This document shows positions 9,280-60,008 of a stretch of DNA of 64,000 bases, in pieces; positions within the stretch are counted from its first letter, which is position 1, and every line of letters begins with the position of its first letter. Below the pieces are notes generated by a model that had not been told where the DNA came from, did not search any database, and saw only the letters and a list, made by a program, of their open reading frames with translations. Position numbers and translations under genes: made by a program. Source of the stretch: Thiohalobacter thiocyanaticus (GTDB lineage: Bacteria > Pseudomonadota > Gammaproteobacteria > Thiohalobacterales > Thiohalobacteraceae); NCBI RefSeq assembly GCF_002356355.1, contig NZ_AP018052.1, forward strand, positions 1,054,001-1,118,000, in the 5' to 3' direction.

Positions 9280-9297
9280 ATTCTTCGATCGATCTCG

Positions 9298-9379
9298 TAG
9301 GTCGGGTTAGCCCGAAAGGGCGTAACCCGACAATGGCCCGCGTTTGTGTCGGGTTACGCTGCGGCTGACCCGACCTGCA
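9298..9379. repeat. GGTCGGGTT palindromic repeat, copy 1
   Basis: Long imperfect palindrome: TAGGTCGGGTTAGCCC at the left is mirrored by GGCTGACCCGACCTGCA at the right, with an internal CGTAACCCGAC/GTCGGGTTACG pair. It lies between the convergent pmbA-linked gene and trpB2. Seven further copies are listed below. Confidence 0.85.
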
Positions 9380-33086: not shown

Positions 33087-33132
33087 GGTCAGGGATCAGG
33101 AATCCGGAATGTATGGTACTTGCTTCGGCTCC

Positions 33133-33159
33133 GTCATCCCCGCGAAGGCGGGGATCCAG
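33133..33159. repeat. dRS3-like palindromic repeat at hisC/DUF3108 junction
   Basis: GTCATCCCCGCG-AAGG-CGGGGATCC: an inverted repeat with CCCCGC/GCGGGG arms, a relative of the Neisseria dRS3 element ATTCCC(N8)GGGAAT. It lies between convergent genes. Confidence 0.75.
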
Positions 33160-33174
33160 TGTACACAGACCTGA

Positions 33175-33972
33175 CTAGGGCTCTTTAGCCTTATCCTGCC
33201 CCCTGACCCCTGATTCCTGTTCATCCGGCAACAGATCCCGCGTCAGCAGCCGACTCAGATATTCCGTCCCATCCTCCTGGTCGATCTGTTTGATCTGCAC
33301 CGGCAGGTAATCCAGTTCGGGCGCGACCCACAGGTAGGTGGTACGGTCCTGGTCTGCGCGCAATCGTTCCAGTTTCAGCGTATGGAATCTGCCCGCCGGC
33401 GTGTGCAGCCCTTCCTGCCTGCGCAGCTGGTAGCGGAAGGTCTTCAGATGGCCGCCGTCGGCGATGGCATACTCCAGTTCCCGCTTGCCCCGCTGCAGAT
33501 CCAGCAGCAGCGCAAGCTGTACCACCAACTTGTCCAGGGCGCCGTCGGGCACCTCCATCCGCCAGCCTTCCCCCTGCACCTCATTGACCACCTGATTCGC
33601 TTCCCAGTCGAAGCTGATGCGGACATGCCGTTCGTGGTCGCGGCGATGATGATGGTATTCGTATTCCCGCGGCCGGATGCCTCCCCGATCATAGCTGAAG
33701 CGACTCAGTTCGCGCAGCGAATCGTCGCGCAGAAAGGCCGCGATCCCGATGGAATCGGTCTTGGCGCTGTAGCGATAGCCGCTGTCGGGGTCTGCCACCA
33801 GCGTGATTTCCTGGTGGCCGATGGCGATGCCGTTGACATAGAGCCGATACAGGGCGGTGAAGGCGGGGTAGGGCAGTTCATCCGCGGTCGCGGTCGGCGG
33901 GAGCAGCAGCGCAAGCCACAACCACAGCGGCAGGCAGGCACGGGAAAGGCTGTGACGTGGACGCGGCTTCAT
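33175..33972 (-). CDS. DUF3108 periplasmic protein
   Basis: A 265-residue secreted protein with a Leu-rich signal peptide (about 9-31, ending TATA) and a DUF3108 domain (ALYRLYVNGIAIGHQEITL, KLERLRADQDRTTYLWVAPELDYLPVQI). The family has an all-beta fold and unknown function; members often lie next to purN/purM, as here. The last 15 residues or so (EQESGVRGQDKAKEP) are encoded by a copy of a GGAATCAGGGGTCAGGG repeat rather than by the conserved domain. Confidence 0.88.
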   Translation of the reverse strand: MKPRPRHSLSRACLPLWLWLALLLPPTATADELPYPAFTALYRLYVNGIAIGHQEITLVADPDSGYRYSAKTDSIGIAAFLRDDSLRELSRFSYDRGGIRPREYEYHHHRRDHERHVRISFDWEANQVVNEVQGEGWRMEVPDGALDKLVVQLALLLDLQRGKRELEYAIADGGHLKTFRYQLRRQEGLHTPAGRFHTLKLERLRADQDRTTYLWVAPELDYLPVQIKQIDQEDGTEYLSRLLTRDLLPDEQESGVRGQDKAKEP

Positions 33973-34079
33973 TCGCCTGAGTGTATGCGGCCCGTCGGGT
34001 TTTGTCAGGTTGCGCTCGGGGCGGGCTCAAGAGCGCCACGGAAAGCACGGAAAAATGATGATTCGATGTGGATAAACCG

Positions 34080-34116
34080 CAGGTCGGATCAGCCCGCAGG
34101 GTGTAATCCGACATTG
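34080..34116. repeat. GGTCGGGTT palindromic repeat, copy 3 (half)
   Basis: GCAGGTCGGATCAGCCC followed by GTGTAATCCGAC: arms GTCGGAT and ATCCGAC. It is a shortened member nested in the composite element. Confidence 0.7.
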
Positions 34117-34137
34117 ATGCCGGACCACCTGTTGGGA

Positions 34138-34215
34138 CGTCATCCCCGCGAAGGCGGGGATCCAGCGCCTTTCTGCCCGCCCCGTTCCGGATTCCCGCCT
34201 CCGTGGGAATGACGG
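34138..34215. repeat. dRS3-like palindrome pair
   Basis: CGTCATCCCCGCGAAGGCG at the left is mirrored at the right end by CCGTGGGAATGACGG, with GGGGATCC and GGATTCCC internal arms. The whole forms one 78-bp imperfect palindrome. Confidence 0.75.
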
Positions 34216-34240
34216 GATGGCTGAAACCCGATTCAGATTT

Positions 34241-34274
34241 GCAGGTCGGGTTGACGCAGCGTAACCCGACCTGC
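34241..34274. repeat. GGTCGGGTT palindromic repeat, copy 4
   Basis: A perfect 12-bp inverted repeat GCAGGTCGGGTT / AACCCGACCTGC with a 10-nt loop, followed about 10 bp later by a run of T residues. On the plus strand it has the shape of a terminator. Confidence 0.8.
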
Positions 34275-34343
34275 GTTCCCGGCATTTTTTTAGTCCGTGC
34301 TTTCCGTGTATTCCGTGGCGCTCTTTGGTTCTGGCCGATATGC

Positions 34344-35000
34344 CTATGGCTGCAGCTGCACCGGTTCGGTCAGCGGCCGGCCGTCCAGGTGCACCTGTTC
34401 GTCGTCGAAGTCGATCCTGCCTGCGGCGAACCAGCGGATGGCCTCGGGGTAGAGGCGATGCTCCTGTTCCAGTACCCGGGCAGCGAGGGTGTCGGGATCG
34501 TCGCCGGGATGCACCGGCACCCGCGCCTGGATCAGCACCGGTCCGCCGTCGAGTTCCTCGGTGACCAGGTGCACGCTGGCGCCGTGTTCCGCATCGCCTT
34601 CCTCCAGCGCCCGGGCATGGGTGTTCAGCCCGCGGTGGCGCGGCAGCAGGGAGGGGTGGATGTTGAGCAGCCGCCGGGCGTAATGGCGGACGAAGGCCGG
34701 GGTCAGGATGCGCATGAAGCCGGCCAGCACCACCAGTCCGGGGGCATAGCCGTCGATCAACTCGATCAGGGCGCGGTCATAGGCTTCGCGGTCGGCGAAG
34801 CCCTTGTGGGACAGCACCTGCGTTTCGATCCCGGCCTGGCGGGCGCGCTCCAGACCATAGGCGCCGGGGACATTGCTGATCACAGCGCGGATTTCGATCG
34901 GCAGGGTGCCGCCGGCGGCCTGGTCGAGGATGGCCTGCAGGTTGCTGCCACGGCCGGAAATCAGAATGACCACAGGCAGCTTGTCGGTCCGGACAGGCAT
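34344..35000 (-). CDS. purN: PurN, phosphoribosylglycinamide formyltransferase
   Basis: A 218-residue formyltetrahydrofolate-dependent enzyme of purine synthesis. The start VVILISGRGSNLQAILD, the folate-binding GFMRILTPAFV, the active-site NIHPSLLPRHRGLNTH and the Asp in LVTEELDGGPVL are all present. It follows purM by 15 bp on the same strand, the usual purMN operon. Confidence 0.96.
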   Translation of the reverse strand: MPVRTDKLPVVILISGRGSNLQAILDQAAGGTLPIEIRAVISNVPGAYGLERARQAGIETQVLSHKGFADREAYDRALIELIDGYAPGLVVLAGFMRILTPAFVRHYARRLLNIHPSLLPRHRGLNTHARALEEGDAEHGASVHLVTEELDGGPVLIQARVPVHPGDDPDTLAARVLEQEHRLYPEAIRWFAAGRIDFDDEQVHLDGRPLTEPVQLQP

Positions 35001-39573: not shown

Positions 39574-39668
39574 TAGGATGGGTGCAGCGCAGCGTAACCC
39601 ATCATTGCCCGATTCGCAGCGGTGAAGTACGCAGGTCGGGTTACGCCTTACAGGCTGACCCGACCTGC
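39574..39668. repeat. GGTCGGGTT palindromic repeat, copy 5 (two-part)
   Basis: A GTAGGATGGGTGCAGCGCAG / CGTAACCCATC half is followed by a GCAGGTCGGGTTACGCC / GGCTGACCCGACCTGC half. It occupies the whole junction between convergent hda and the DUF2069 gene. Confidence 0.8.
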
Positions 39669-56044: not shown

Positions 56045-56217
56045 AACGCGGAGGCGCAGAGTGCACAGCGTCATTCCCGCGCAGGCGGGAATCCATAAAC
56101 CGCCGCGGGTGCTGGATCCCCACCTGCGCGGGGATGACGGCGTTTCTGGTCTTATAGCCAATATTTCCGACCACTGTGTAAAATCAAAAAACTCTGCGGT
56201 CCCTGCGCCTTTGCGTT
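56045..56217. repeat. Composite nested repeat between lepA and lepB
   Basis: Outer imperfect arms AACGCGGAGGCGCAGAG (56045) and CTGCGCCTTTGCGTT (56203-56217) match over 18 of 24 bp when extended. Between them lies a dRS3-like palindrome (56069-56139). No coding frame is credible in the 232-bp gap. Confidence 0.75.
56069..56139. repeat. dRS3-like palindromic repeat
   Basis: CGTCATTCCCGCGCAGGCG at the left, GGGAATCC next, then GGATCCCCACCTGCGCGGGG and ATGACG at the right. The left core ATTCCCGCGCAGGCGGGAAT is the Neisseria dRS3 pattern ATTCCC(N8)GGGAAT. Confidence 0.85.
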
Positions 56218-57472: not shown

Positions 57473-58170
57473 CGCCGCCACTGGAAGCACTGGCCCGGCG
57501 GCTGTGTCATGAATTCACCACCCCGGCCCTGTTGCAACAGGCGCTCACCCATCGCAGCGCCGGCAATCTCAACAATGAACGACTGGAATTCCTCGGGGAT
57601 GCGGTGCTCGGTATGGTCATCGCCGATGCCCTCTACGCGCGCTATCCCAAAGCCAGTGAAGGTGACCTGAGCCGGCTGCGCGCGACCCTGGTGAAGAAAC
57701 CCACCCTGGCCGGCATCGCCCGTGAACTGGAACTGGGGGAGTATCTGCAACTGGGCTCGGGCGAACTGAAGAGCGGCGGCTTCCGGCGTGATTCCATCCT
57801 GGCCGACGCCCTGGAAGCGATTCTCGGTGCCGTCTATCTGGACGCCGGTTTCGATACCGCTGCCGCACTGGTGCTGCAGCTCTATCAGCCGCGACTGCAG
57901 TCGCTGCCGGAGGCCGCCGCGCTCAAGGATCCGAAGACCCGCCTGCAGGAATACCTCCAGTCCCGCCACATCGAACTGCCCGAATATCAGGTGATCCAGG
58001 TCTCCGGCAAGGCGCACGCCCAGACCTTCGAGGTCGAATGCCGGATCGCCGGGCTGGACCGCAGCAGCCGCGGACGCGGCTCCAGCCGGCGCAAGGCCGA
58101 ACAGGCCGCCGCCGCCGGCATGCTGCAGGCGCTGGGCGTGGAGACCGAGGTGCAGGAGTCGGATGCATGA
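57469..58170 (+). CDS. rnc: RNase III
   Basis: A 233-residue endonuclease for dsRNA. The signature ERLEFLGDAVLG holds metal ligands of the RNase III domain (about 1-155), and a dsRNA-binding domain follows (about 160-230, SRRKAEQAAAAGMLQAL). TTG start inside the DUF4845 stop. era follows by 16 bp, the conserved rnc-era operon. Confidence 0.95.
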   Translation: MTPPLEALARRLCHEFTTPALLQQALTHRSAGNLNNERLEFLGDAVLGMVIADALYARYPKASEGDLSRLRATLVKKPTLAGIARELELGEYLQLGSGELKSGGFRRDSILADALEAILGAVYLDAGFDTAAALVLQLYQPRLQSLPEAAALKDPKTRLQEYLQSRHIELPEYQVIQVSGKAHAQTFEVECRIAGLDRSSRGRGSSRRKAEQAAAAGMLQALGVETEVQESDA

Positions 58171-58186
58171 TGAGGGCGCGGCAGGC

Positions 58187-59089
58187 ATGAATACGGATTC
58201 CGGCGATTTCCGCTGCGGCCTGGTGGCGCTGGTCGGGCGGCCGAACGTGGGCAAGTCGACCCTGCTCAACCGCATACTCGGACAGAAAATAAGCATAACC
58301 TCGGATAAGCCGCAGACGACCCGGCACCGTATTCTCGGCATCAAGACCACGTCGCAGGCCCAGGTGGTCTATATCGATACCCCGGGCCTGCATCGCGGCG
58401 GCAAGCGCGCGCTCAACCGGGCGCTCAACCGCGCCGCCAGCGATGCCATCGCTGACGTGGACCTGGCCGTATTCCTGATCGAGGCCGGACGCTGGACCGA
58501 CGAGGACGAACTGGTGCTGCGGCGTCTGCGTCAGGCCGGCGTTCCGATACTGCTGGCGGTCAACAAGATCGACCGGGTGGCGGATCGCGCTCAACTGCTG
58601 CCGGAGTTGCAGACGCTGGCGGGCAGGCATGATTTCGCCGAAATCCTGCCCCTGTCAGCCGCGCGCGGGGAGAATCTGGAGCGACTGGAACAGTGCGTGA
58701 TCGCGCGCCTGCCCGCAGGGCCGCCCTATTTCCCCGAGGAGCAGATCACCGATCGCAGCGAGCGTTTTCTCGCGGCCGAGTTGATTCGCGAGAAGCTGTT
58801 CCGTCGCCTGGGTCAGGAGCTGCCCTACGGTCTGACTGTGCAGATCGAACAGTTCAAGGACGACGACGGTCTGCTGCGCATCCATGGACTGGTATGGGTG
58901 GAGCGCGATTCGCAGAAGGCCATCGTGATCGGCAAGGGCGGCGCCATGCTCAAGCAGATCGGCCGCGAGGCGCGACTGGACATGGAGCGGCTGTTCGGCA
59001 GCAAGGTATTCCTGCAGCTGTGGGTCAAGGTCAAGGGCGGCTGGGCGGATGATGAGCGTGCCCTGCGCAGCCTTGGCATCGATGAATGA
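58187..59089 (+). CDS. era: Era, ribosome-assembly GTPase
   Basis: A 300-residue GTPase that binds the 3' end of 16S rRNA. G1 is GRPNVGKST, G3 DTPG, G4 NKID; the KH domain (IVIGKGGAMLKQIGREARLDME) is complete. The ATG at MNTDSGD gives the E. coli length (301 aa); an ATG at 58163 overlapping rnc is an alternative. Confidence 0.96.
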   Translation: MNTDSGDFRCGLVALVGRPNVGKSTLLNRILGQKISITSDKPQTTRHRILGIKTTSQAQVVYIDTPGLHRGGKRALNRALNRAASDAIADVDLAVFLIEAGRWTDEDELVLRRLRQAGVPILLAVNKIDRVADRAQLLPELQTLAGRHDFAEILPLSAARGENLERLEQCVIARLPAGPPYFPEEQITDRSERFLAAELIREKLFRRLGQELPYGLTVQIEQFKDDDGLLRIHGLVWVERDSQKAIVIGKGGAMLKQIGREARLDMERLFGSKVFLQLWVKVKGGWADDERALRSLGIDE

Positions 59090-59096
59090 AACAGGA

Positions 59097-59264
59097 TAGC
59101 CACGGAAAACACGGAAAGCACGGATACAATACAATTTCGTAACCTTCGCGGGTTGGGTTGGCCCGTAGGGCATAACCCAACATCCAGGCCGTATGCGTTG
59201 GGTTAAGGTGCCGTCGCGCCTAACCCAGCCGGCAATGCCTCATATATCTTATTTTCCGTGGCTA
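59097..59264. repeat. Composite nested repeat between era and recO
   Basis: A perfect 13-bp inverted pair, TAGCCACGGAAAA (59097-59109) and TTTTCCGTGGCTA (59252-59264), with CACGGAAAGCACGGA next to the left arm, encloses a GGGTTGG palindrome (59149-59230). Both ends carry TA. It separates era from recO, which are normally adjacent. Confidence 0.82.
59149..59230. repeat. GGTCGGGTT-family palindrome, copy 7 (GGGTTGG variant)
   Basis: GGGTTGGGTTGGCCCGTAGG with CATAACCCAAC, then GCGTTGGGTTAAGG with CGCCTAACCC. Two inverted pairs in tandem, nested within the CCACGGAAAA arms. Confidence 0.75.
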
Positions 59265-59289: not shown

Positions 59290-60008
59290 ATGGCCGTCGA
59301 CAGCGTCGAGCTGCAGCCCGCCTATATCCTGCATCACCGGGCCTGGCGTGATACCAGTGCGCTGTTGGAGCTCATTACGCCCGGGTATGGACGCATCGGC
59401 GTGGTCGCGCGTGGTGCGCGCAGCGCGCGCTCGCCGCTGCGCGGCCTGCTGCGTCCCTTCCTGCCGCTGCTGTGTTCCTGGGGGGGCGCGGAGAGTTGTT
59501 CAGCCTGCGCCGGATGGAGGTGGCCGGGCGCTCGCCCGAGCTTCGTGGCCAGGCCCTGTTCGCGGCCTATTATCTCAATGAGCTCCTGCTGCGACTGCTG
59601 CAGCGTCAGGATCCGCATCCCGAGGTCTTCGATGCCTACGTTCAGGCGCTCGGCAGCTTCGCGCTCCAGCCCCTGGAGGCGGTACTGCGGGTGTTCGAGA
59701 AGCGACTGCTGGAGGCCCTGGGGTATGCGCTGGTACTGGAGTCGGACGTGTCCGGTGAGCCGATCGAGGCCCGCTGCCGCTACCGCTACCTTCCCGAGCA
59801 GGGGCTGGAACGGATGCAGGGGCAGGGCGGGATCAGCGGCCGGGCCCTGCTGGCACTGGCGGCCGAGGCCTGTGACAATGCGCAGGATCTGCGTGAAATC
59901 AAGCCGCTGCTGCGCCAGGTGCTGGGACAGTATCTGGGCGAGCGGCCGCTGAAGACACGCGAATTTCTCATCGATCTGGAAGGACAGGGGCGGAGCGGAC
60001 ATGATTGA
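59290..60008 (+). pseudogene. recO: RecO recombination mediator, frameshifted at a G7 tract
   Basis: RecO loads RecA with RecR onto SSB-coated DNA. The N-terminal OB-fold part (MAVDSVELQPAYILHHRAWR to LLRPFLPLLCSW) is in the first frame, and the C-terminal part (GRGELFSLRRMEVAG onward to [13 protein letters not shown]) is in the -1 frame. The switch falls at seven G residues, 59480-59486; one extra G would give the normal WxGRGEL junction and a product of about 239 residues (E. coli 242). Either a sequencing indel, a true mutation, or slippage. The end overlaps pdxJ by 8 bp. Confidence 0.88.

Follow-up and report, generated by a model that had tools for sequence, protein, structure and literature searches.

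Inverted iteron arms framing exchangeable palindromes at operon junctions of Thiohalobacter thiocyanaticus, and their presence around GxxExxY genes

The element at the purN junction

The analysed window, a stretch of 64,000 nucleotides from the 3.23 Mb genome of Thiohalobacter thiocyanaticus (G000:C1:1054001-1118000; coordinates without a prefix refer to it), contains at 34029-34325 a framed element of 297 bp, located at an operon junction. Both neighbouring genes are on the minus strand: the upstream one (34344-35000) is taken, by sequence recognition and not from a family search, to be purN-like, and its stop codon lies 18 bp from the right arm of the element; the downstream one (33175-33972), presumably a DUF3108-like gene on the same grounds, begins at a distance of 56 bp from the left arm. 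The element starts with AAGAGCGCCACGGAAAGCACGGAAA and ends with TTTCCGTGTATTCCGTGGCGCTCTT; it is framed by the arms AAGAGCGCCACGGAA...TTCCGTGGCGCTCTT, whose building block is a 9-bp iteron, CACGGAANN. The left arm (34029-34053, plus strand) is composed of an outer AAGAGC, followed by GCCACGGAAAGCACGGAAA, and features two iterons, one below the family standard. The right arm (34294-34325, minus strand) has an outer AAGAGC, followed by GCCACGGAATACACGGAAAGCACGGA, and the standard three iterons, at 34294-34317. As the left arm is one iteron short, CACGGAAAGCACGGA pairs additionally with 34294-34308. The arms are complementary at 92% over 25 bp (34029-34053 against 34301-34325) and perfectly so in the outer 15 bp, confirming the perfect inverted pair noticed in a previous, sequence-only reading of this DNA.

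The interior consists of a dimer of CGTC-type REPs, flanked by two GTAG-type hairpins. The first hairpin (34079-34112, plus strand, GCAGGTCGGATC...GTAATCCGAC) is a degenerate member of a class described in PMC3733652; the second one (GCAGGTCGGGTTGACGCAGCGTAACCCGACCTGC) is found at 34241-34274, on the same strand. The dimer is formed by a unit at 34138-34165 (plus strand, CGTCATCCCCGCGAAGGCGGGGATCCAG) and by an inverted second half at 34189-34214 (minus strand, GGATTCCCGCCTCCGTGGGAATGACG), recognized by direct reading of the sequence. Three repeat copies of two families had been counted within this frame: the families are indeed two, but the copies are four, two for each type. REP units of the same families also occur in the window at 33132-33159 (a further copy of the CGTC unit), 56069-56137, 9297-9378 and 39631-39668, with no CACGGAA frame around them; frames are thus not the sole location of such REPs.

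The interior features a tag, a stem-loop and, in the genome, a RAYT-like gene flanked by the same repeat, as do REPs and REPINs of the GTAG type. The frame itself is different: its arms carry no GTAG tag, and the 20-40-bp palindrome, the tag and the RAYT link which define REPs and REPINs are not found in it. High copy number, terminal inverted repeats, intergenic position and absence of a transposase ORF are those of a MITE. No GxxExxY-type ORF is contained in the element. S23 has no match anywhere in the genome, and the element sits outside 23S rRNA genes. No Rfam cis-regulatory RNA scored above gathering, the best values being 17-20 bits against gathering scores of 100-197.

A genome-wide family of frames

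When searched genome-wide with up to 2 mismatches, CACGGAAANCACGGA gave 353 matches, against 11 for the reversed-pattern control; a strict triple-iteron pattern gave 156 arms (80 forward, 76 reverse), against none for the control. Chance is thereby excluded as the origin of the arms, and frames may be estimated at roughly 80-120 in the genome. Complete arm pairs were recovered for 65 elements, ranging in length from 73 to 539 bp (median 176); they are a hit-driven sample, taken from the stretches around pattern matches, and not a census. Their interiors are mutually non-homologous. At least five palindrome families are represented, with one or several in most frames, and REP-like palindromes of five kinds are found inside about 60 of the 65. 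This, together with the nesting of frames, fits the earlier suggestion of an element collecting palindromes. In this sample one frame only encloses a GxxExxY gene, another one a different small gene along with a nested frame with CACGAAA iterons, and one, of 73 bp (L022:2900-2972), is empty.

Arm outer ends are of two types genome-wide, AAGAGC and AT[AG]. Among the 54 elements with both arms typed, 29 are AAGAGC/AAGAGC, 17 AT/AT and 8 mixed: left and right types agree in 46 cases (odds ratio 33, Fisher p=4e-7), bearing out the previous indication that arms are kept as a pair. No further significant pairing of arm variants was found inside the AAGAGC type. The second element of the window (59096-59264) has AT[AG]-type outer ends, a decayed right arm and an inner GTAG-like dimer, a GTTGGGTT variant; as already observed in the sequence-only reading, it shares the core, not the outer bases, with the element at the purN junction. 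It is located 6 bp past era (58163-59089) and ahead of recO (from 59290). The latter gene (59290-60008) is apparently split by a frameshift at a G run (ORFs 59290-59952 and 59472-60008), which appears to be a sequencing error, a pseudogene or a phase-variable tract.

A second family of frames, with CCACGAAA TCCACGAAA iterons, was observed at L047:15484-16022 and in L187, nested in CACGGAA frames and containing the same palindromes. Inside one frame (L035:11638-11960), a truncated CGTC REP (GTCATTCCCGCGCAGTCTTTC) is repeated six times, nearly in tandem. Solo, one-sided iteron arrays were also found, with 7 copies at L045:8799-8867 and about 14 at G078:C55:17054-17185, in an unrelated family of the class. 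Strict CACGGAA arms are 64 in G003, from the other genus of the host family in the sample, which has the corresponding GxxExxY clade; they are absent from 139 of 141 other genomes of the class.

The abundance of REP-like units within frames may be explained by a REP/RAYT mosaic, where a RAYT inserts GTAG REPs into a pre-existing palindrome and the frame is simply a preferred single-strand hairpin target. A potential source is present: a RAYT-like Y1 gene (L218:1501-1854), whose bit score is just under the Pfam cut-off, features GTAG-type REP dimers (GTAGGTCGGGTT) on both sides, and is a candidate driver of the GTAG guests. A precedent is provided by some REP dimers of Anabaena variabilis and H. 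neapolitanus, found inside larger palindromes (PMC3733652). The frame itself is not accounted for, only its guests. REP-free frames exist, namely the empty one and the GxxExxY cassette; frames nest, and vary in iteron class at one same site, neither of which is expected from a RAYT. CACGGAA arms are missing around all 3 Y1_Tnp loci, and no RAYT gene was found in the congener G001 (78% complete). Moreover, to our knowledge, CGTC REPs have no transposase. A mosaic of this kind is, on the whole, improbable as an explanation of the elements.

Genomic localization

Frames tend to lie just behind genes: the median gap is 7 bp from the frame to the stop codon (n=75) and 36 bp to the start codon (n=52), genes having been called by a simple codon-usage caller, crude enough to miss purN, so that individual gaps are approximate. 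Flanking genes are oriented ++ in 28 cases, -- in 14, convergent in 15 and divergent in 5. In the flagellar cluster L035, six frames occur within 13 kb, each immediately behind a gene. When folding is predicted for the 65 elements, the two arms are paired with each other in 64.

Such features are also those anticipated by the main rival explanation, in which frames are intercistronic 3' stem-loops, maintained by the host as mRNA stabilisers or as RNase III or terminator sites; passive, RecA-dependent conversion between arms of about 25-30 bp would exchange their contents, and GxxExxY genes would be occasional passengers. The short distance from stop codons, the mostly co-directional or convergent junctions and the pairing of the arms all speak for it, and so does the conservation of sites throughout the comparisons within the genus, reported below.

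Comparison between congeners

The genome was compared with those of two congeners, G001 and G002 (flanks 84-94% identical), at 20 sites, for 36 comparisons. The CACGGAA frame is kept at the same site in 34 of them. Both exceptions are at L047_3393, where the frame is CACGGAA in G000, CGCAAAG-like in G002 and CGCAGAG-like in G001. Interiors are non-alignable in 21 of the 36 comparisons, and the set of palindrome classes differs in 25. Unrelated orthologous loci with no clean boundary had been indicated as an argument against a mobile element: interiors are in fact often unrelated, but frame and site are conserved.

In G002 the frame at the window site, of AAGAGC type, encloses nothing but a GTAG dimer. 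The linker next to its arm corresponds to the other end of the element in G000 (score 38 versus 10-11), indicating an inversion; the CGTC dimer was either gained in G000 or lost in G002. At L047_590 the G002 interior is the G000 interior, inverted, and the content of G001 is that of the G000 site 3393 (82%). Interior and linkers are common, at 84%, to L025_8292 and L030_1188, about 186 kb apart. In G001, at both L025_8292 and L025_3099, an AT-type frame is nested within an AAGAGC frame. At L047_18611, finally, two frames with a small gene between them are found in G001 and G002, whereas G000 has one frame and no gene; from the sequences, deletion in G000 by recombination between frames is the likely cause. 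The small gene at this site (L047:18611-18821; orthologs L075 and L078) codes for a membrane-like product of about 66 aa.

No empty counterpart was found within the genus: each of the 31 frames mapped in G001 and G002 is matched by one in G000. No duplicated bases, moreover, are separable from the palindromic AT or AAGAGC ends as a target duplication. Recent insertion is therefore unproven, and ordinary homologous recombination could explain the turnover.

Presence and absence in other genera

The junction occupied by the window element is tight and frame-free in G006, G007, G008 and G010, where the genes are nearly abutting (only 3 bp separate the purN stop from the following ATG in G008); no iterons are found at this junction in G003, G004 and G009. 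At a second junction, between genes which are taken from their sequence to be accB and accC, the GxxExxY cassette is present in G000-G003 and G009, ORF-less nested frames are found in G008, and the site is empty in G010 and G006. In G003 and G008 a third one, presumably purH-purD, is occupied by frames whose iterons are of other classes. Empty junctions thus exist in other genera, where flanks are too diverged to fix the exact boundary or a duplication.

The search for empty sites suggested by the sequence-only reading is therefore positive among genera and negative within the genus (31 mapped elements). Its interpretation of the window element, as a miniature mobile element that served as an insertion target, is partly supported: congeners carry a frame at this site and other genera do not, but no target duplication can be demonstrated. 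What goes beyond that interpretation is that the same arms frame the gene of a predicted nuclease, GxxExxY, and that this rule extends across phyla.

Relation to GxxExxY genes

The GxxExxY cassette of the genome (L025:1258-1717) has on both sides arms of the form AAGAGCGCCACGGAATACACGGAA(A/G)GCACGGAA, identical in type to the right arm of the window element; its ORF (L025:1315-1677) belongs to TIGR04256 (E 2e-41). Having the arms and not the ORF, the window element could only be a non-autonomous member of such a family. Within the order, 15 PF13366 genes were found in 11 genomes: all of the 14 with both flanks available feature inverted iteron arms, with CACGGAA, CGCAAAG, CGCAGAG or CGCCAAG iterons.

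A scan of named genomes yielded 80 GxxExxY loci, from many phyla and from archaea; since they are the top matches to the query alignment, a biased sample, the proportions given here are not population estimates. The flanking inverted repeat exceeds all 60 dinucleotide shuffles in 54 of 78 loci, against 3 of 143 displaced windows; the remaining 24 loci have no significant arms. The null was built on these shuffles and displaced controls. An all-against-all null of mismatched pairs was discarded, because real iterons common to different loci inflate it. Where arms are significant (57 loci), their period mostly peaks at 9 or 10 (46 loci).

Iterons and proteins tend to diversify together. On a protein tree of 113 columns only, with few starred branches, the iteron class of the 47 loci with a clear class changes 11 times, against a mean of 28.5 after shuffling, and none of 200 shuffles is as low. 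CACGGAA and ACAGGAT are each confined to one side of a branch; CGCxxAG-type iterons are scattered (7 changes). Clades with the same iteron mix phyla, one of them joining an archaeon with Brocadiaceae. Co-diversification of this kind would follow from a protein which recognizes the iteron and moves along with the arms. Host-maintained stem-loops, in contrast, leave unexplained this agreement across phyla, the arms around GxxExxY genes in many phyla and the empty junctions of sister genera. Passive recombination between selected RNA structures may thus explain turnover and location, not the protein link; it is compatible with the action of a nuclease, and is unlikely to be the whole explanation.

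GxxExxY proteins share an invariant D, E and K, those of the PD-(D/E)XK core, and further invariant G, E and Y positions. In the AlphaFold model (pLDDT 95.9) a compact PD-(D/E)XK core is predicted. Among known folds it most resembles SSO0001, a Cas4-type nuclease (Foldseek E 1e-4; Z 10.9), followed by lambda-exonuclease, restriction enzymes and the archaeal Hjc. As the matches span Cas4, lambda-exonuclease, restriction-type and Hjc cores, the predicted nuclease may be of any of several biochemical types. A sequence search of the PDB with GxxExxY gave nothing relevant. In the G002 copy (L088, G002:C1:1132978-1133319) the catalytic aspartate is replaced by glycine (YLAGILVE), in an intact frame and reading frame.

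The loss of a catalytic residue in a coding copy, the lack of empty sites within the genus and the presence of decayed arms, for example at 59262, might indicate dead remnants: an old transposon family, active in the ancestor of the host family, whose copies now decay or recombine with no function. Intact GxxExxY copies exist, however, arms are near-identical among copies despite their different interiors, and the three congeners differ in iteron class at L047_3393; that the whole family is dead is accordingly doubtful, and ranks as a quite unlikely alternative.

Proposed mechanism

The preferred reading, with a probability of about 0.6, is that the window element is a non-autonomous member of a family of mobile elements based on the GxxExxY nuclease, acting as a cassette frame. 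Coding members would consist of a small PD-(D/E)XK gene (GxxExxY, TIGR04256/PF13366), located between two inverted arrays of 9-10-bp iterons. The predicted nuclease would recognize its own iterons at the arms, and nick or cut there, possibly within an extruded cruciform. Repair of the break from another copy would then bring the whole cassette into a new intergenic site or, more often, into an existing frame. REPs, both the GTAG ones mobilised by a RAYT and the CGTC ones, may be seen as guests that landed in frames and were later copied along. The arms, once transcribed, would form a long 3' stem-loop in the mRNA, which may explain why such elements are tolerated between the genes of an operon. 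Frames may owe their spread to the nuclease, and most of their present shuffling to recombination by the host.

A broader proposal is more tentative, and somewhat less probable than its opposite: that GxxExxY nucleases drive a distinct class of cassettes, each nuclease having its own code of 9-10-bp iterons in the inverted arms and copying the enclosed content to intergenic positions or other frames, which would spread over bacteria and archaea by nuclease and repair with no conventional transposase, and paralleled by a class based on S23 and 7-bp iterons. The frames suggest a kind of mobile element that is widespread and, apparently, undescribed. In the open-access literature searched (subscription papers being outside its scope), no function is reported for GxxExxY (TIGR04256), a widespread family, the framing of its genes is not described, and six arm sequences, when looked for, had no match in the papers. 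The link with the repeats gives the family a directly testable function, as candidate nuclease of a mobile element, and would explain large classes of unnamed intergenic repeats (CACAGATGAA, CGCAAAG, CGCCAAG, ACAGGAT and similar). The co-variation of protein and iteron offers a natural set of candidate nuclease-target pairs. Moreover, the 3' structures of operon junctions are exchanged like cassettes among close species, and at least one gene loss resembles recombination between frames: if the proposed mechanism is true, frames reshuffle operon junctions via a nuclease-and-repair route.

Comparison with known systems

The window palindromes belong to the GTAG and CGTC families, both described REP superfamilies (PMC3733652; for REP, BIME and REPIN see also PMC3116915), and frames share with REPs the position after coding regions. 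They differ in having no GTAG or CGTC tag and no link to a RAYT, and in not being hairpin units themselves. In A. variabilis and H. neapolitanus, where REP dimers occur inside larger palindromes (PMC3733652), each REP family has a palindrome of its own; here a single family of frames holds at least 5 palindrome families, an ORF or nothing. TIRtrons, or TIRYT, where a Y1 transposase is found between TIRs (PMC3733652), are similar for the ORF between terminal inverted repeats and for the dispersed TIR families; the enzyme superfamily is different, and no CACGGAA frame surrounds the Y1 genes detected in this analysis.

The 23S rRNA intervening sequence (IVS) of Coxiella contains an S23 ORF, 28-bp terminal inverted repeats and heptamer repeats, GACAGAT (PMC4990558). 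The likeness lies in a small ORF between TIRs with short tandem repeats, and in the long RNA stem to be expected; GxxExxY frames, in contrast, are outside rRNA genes, GxxExxY is not S23, and iterons are of 9-10 and not 7 bp. S23 genes of the host family (PF05635 over cut-off, L096-L102) are free-standing, and all 7 testable ones lie between inverted arrays of 7-bp iterons (GGCAGTC, GGGAGCT, AGAATTC, GGAGTGA, ATACAAG). S23 and GxxExxY thus look like parallel classes, and the Coxiella IVS, with its 28-bp repeats and heptamers, fits the S23 pattern of inverted iterons.

Bacterial MITEs, such as RUP, NEMIS/Correia, Nezha and ERIC, are like frames in being short, high-copy, ORF-less, intergenic, bounded by TIRs and co-transcribed with their neighbours. 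The partner of MITEs is a DDE or HUH transposase, the candidate partner of the frames a PD-(D/E)XK protein, GxxExxY; frame arms are arrays of 9-bp iterons, interiors are exchangeable, unrelated palindromes, and no target duplication is resolved. Frames may therefore be regarded as inverted-repeat elements similar to MITEs or to IVSs, and there is a fair chance that they form a separate class.
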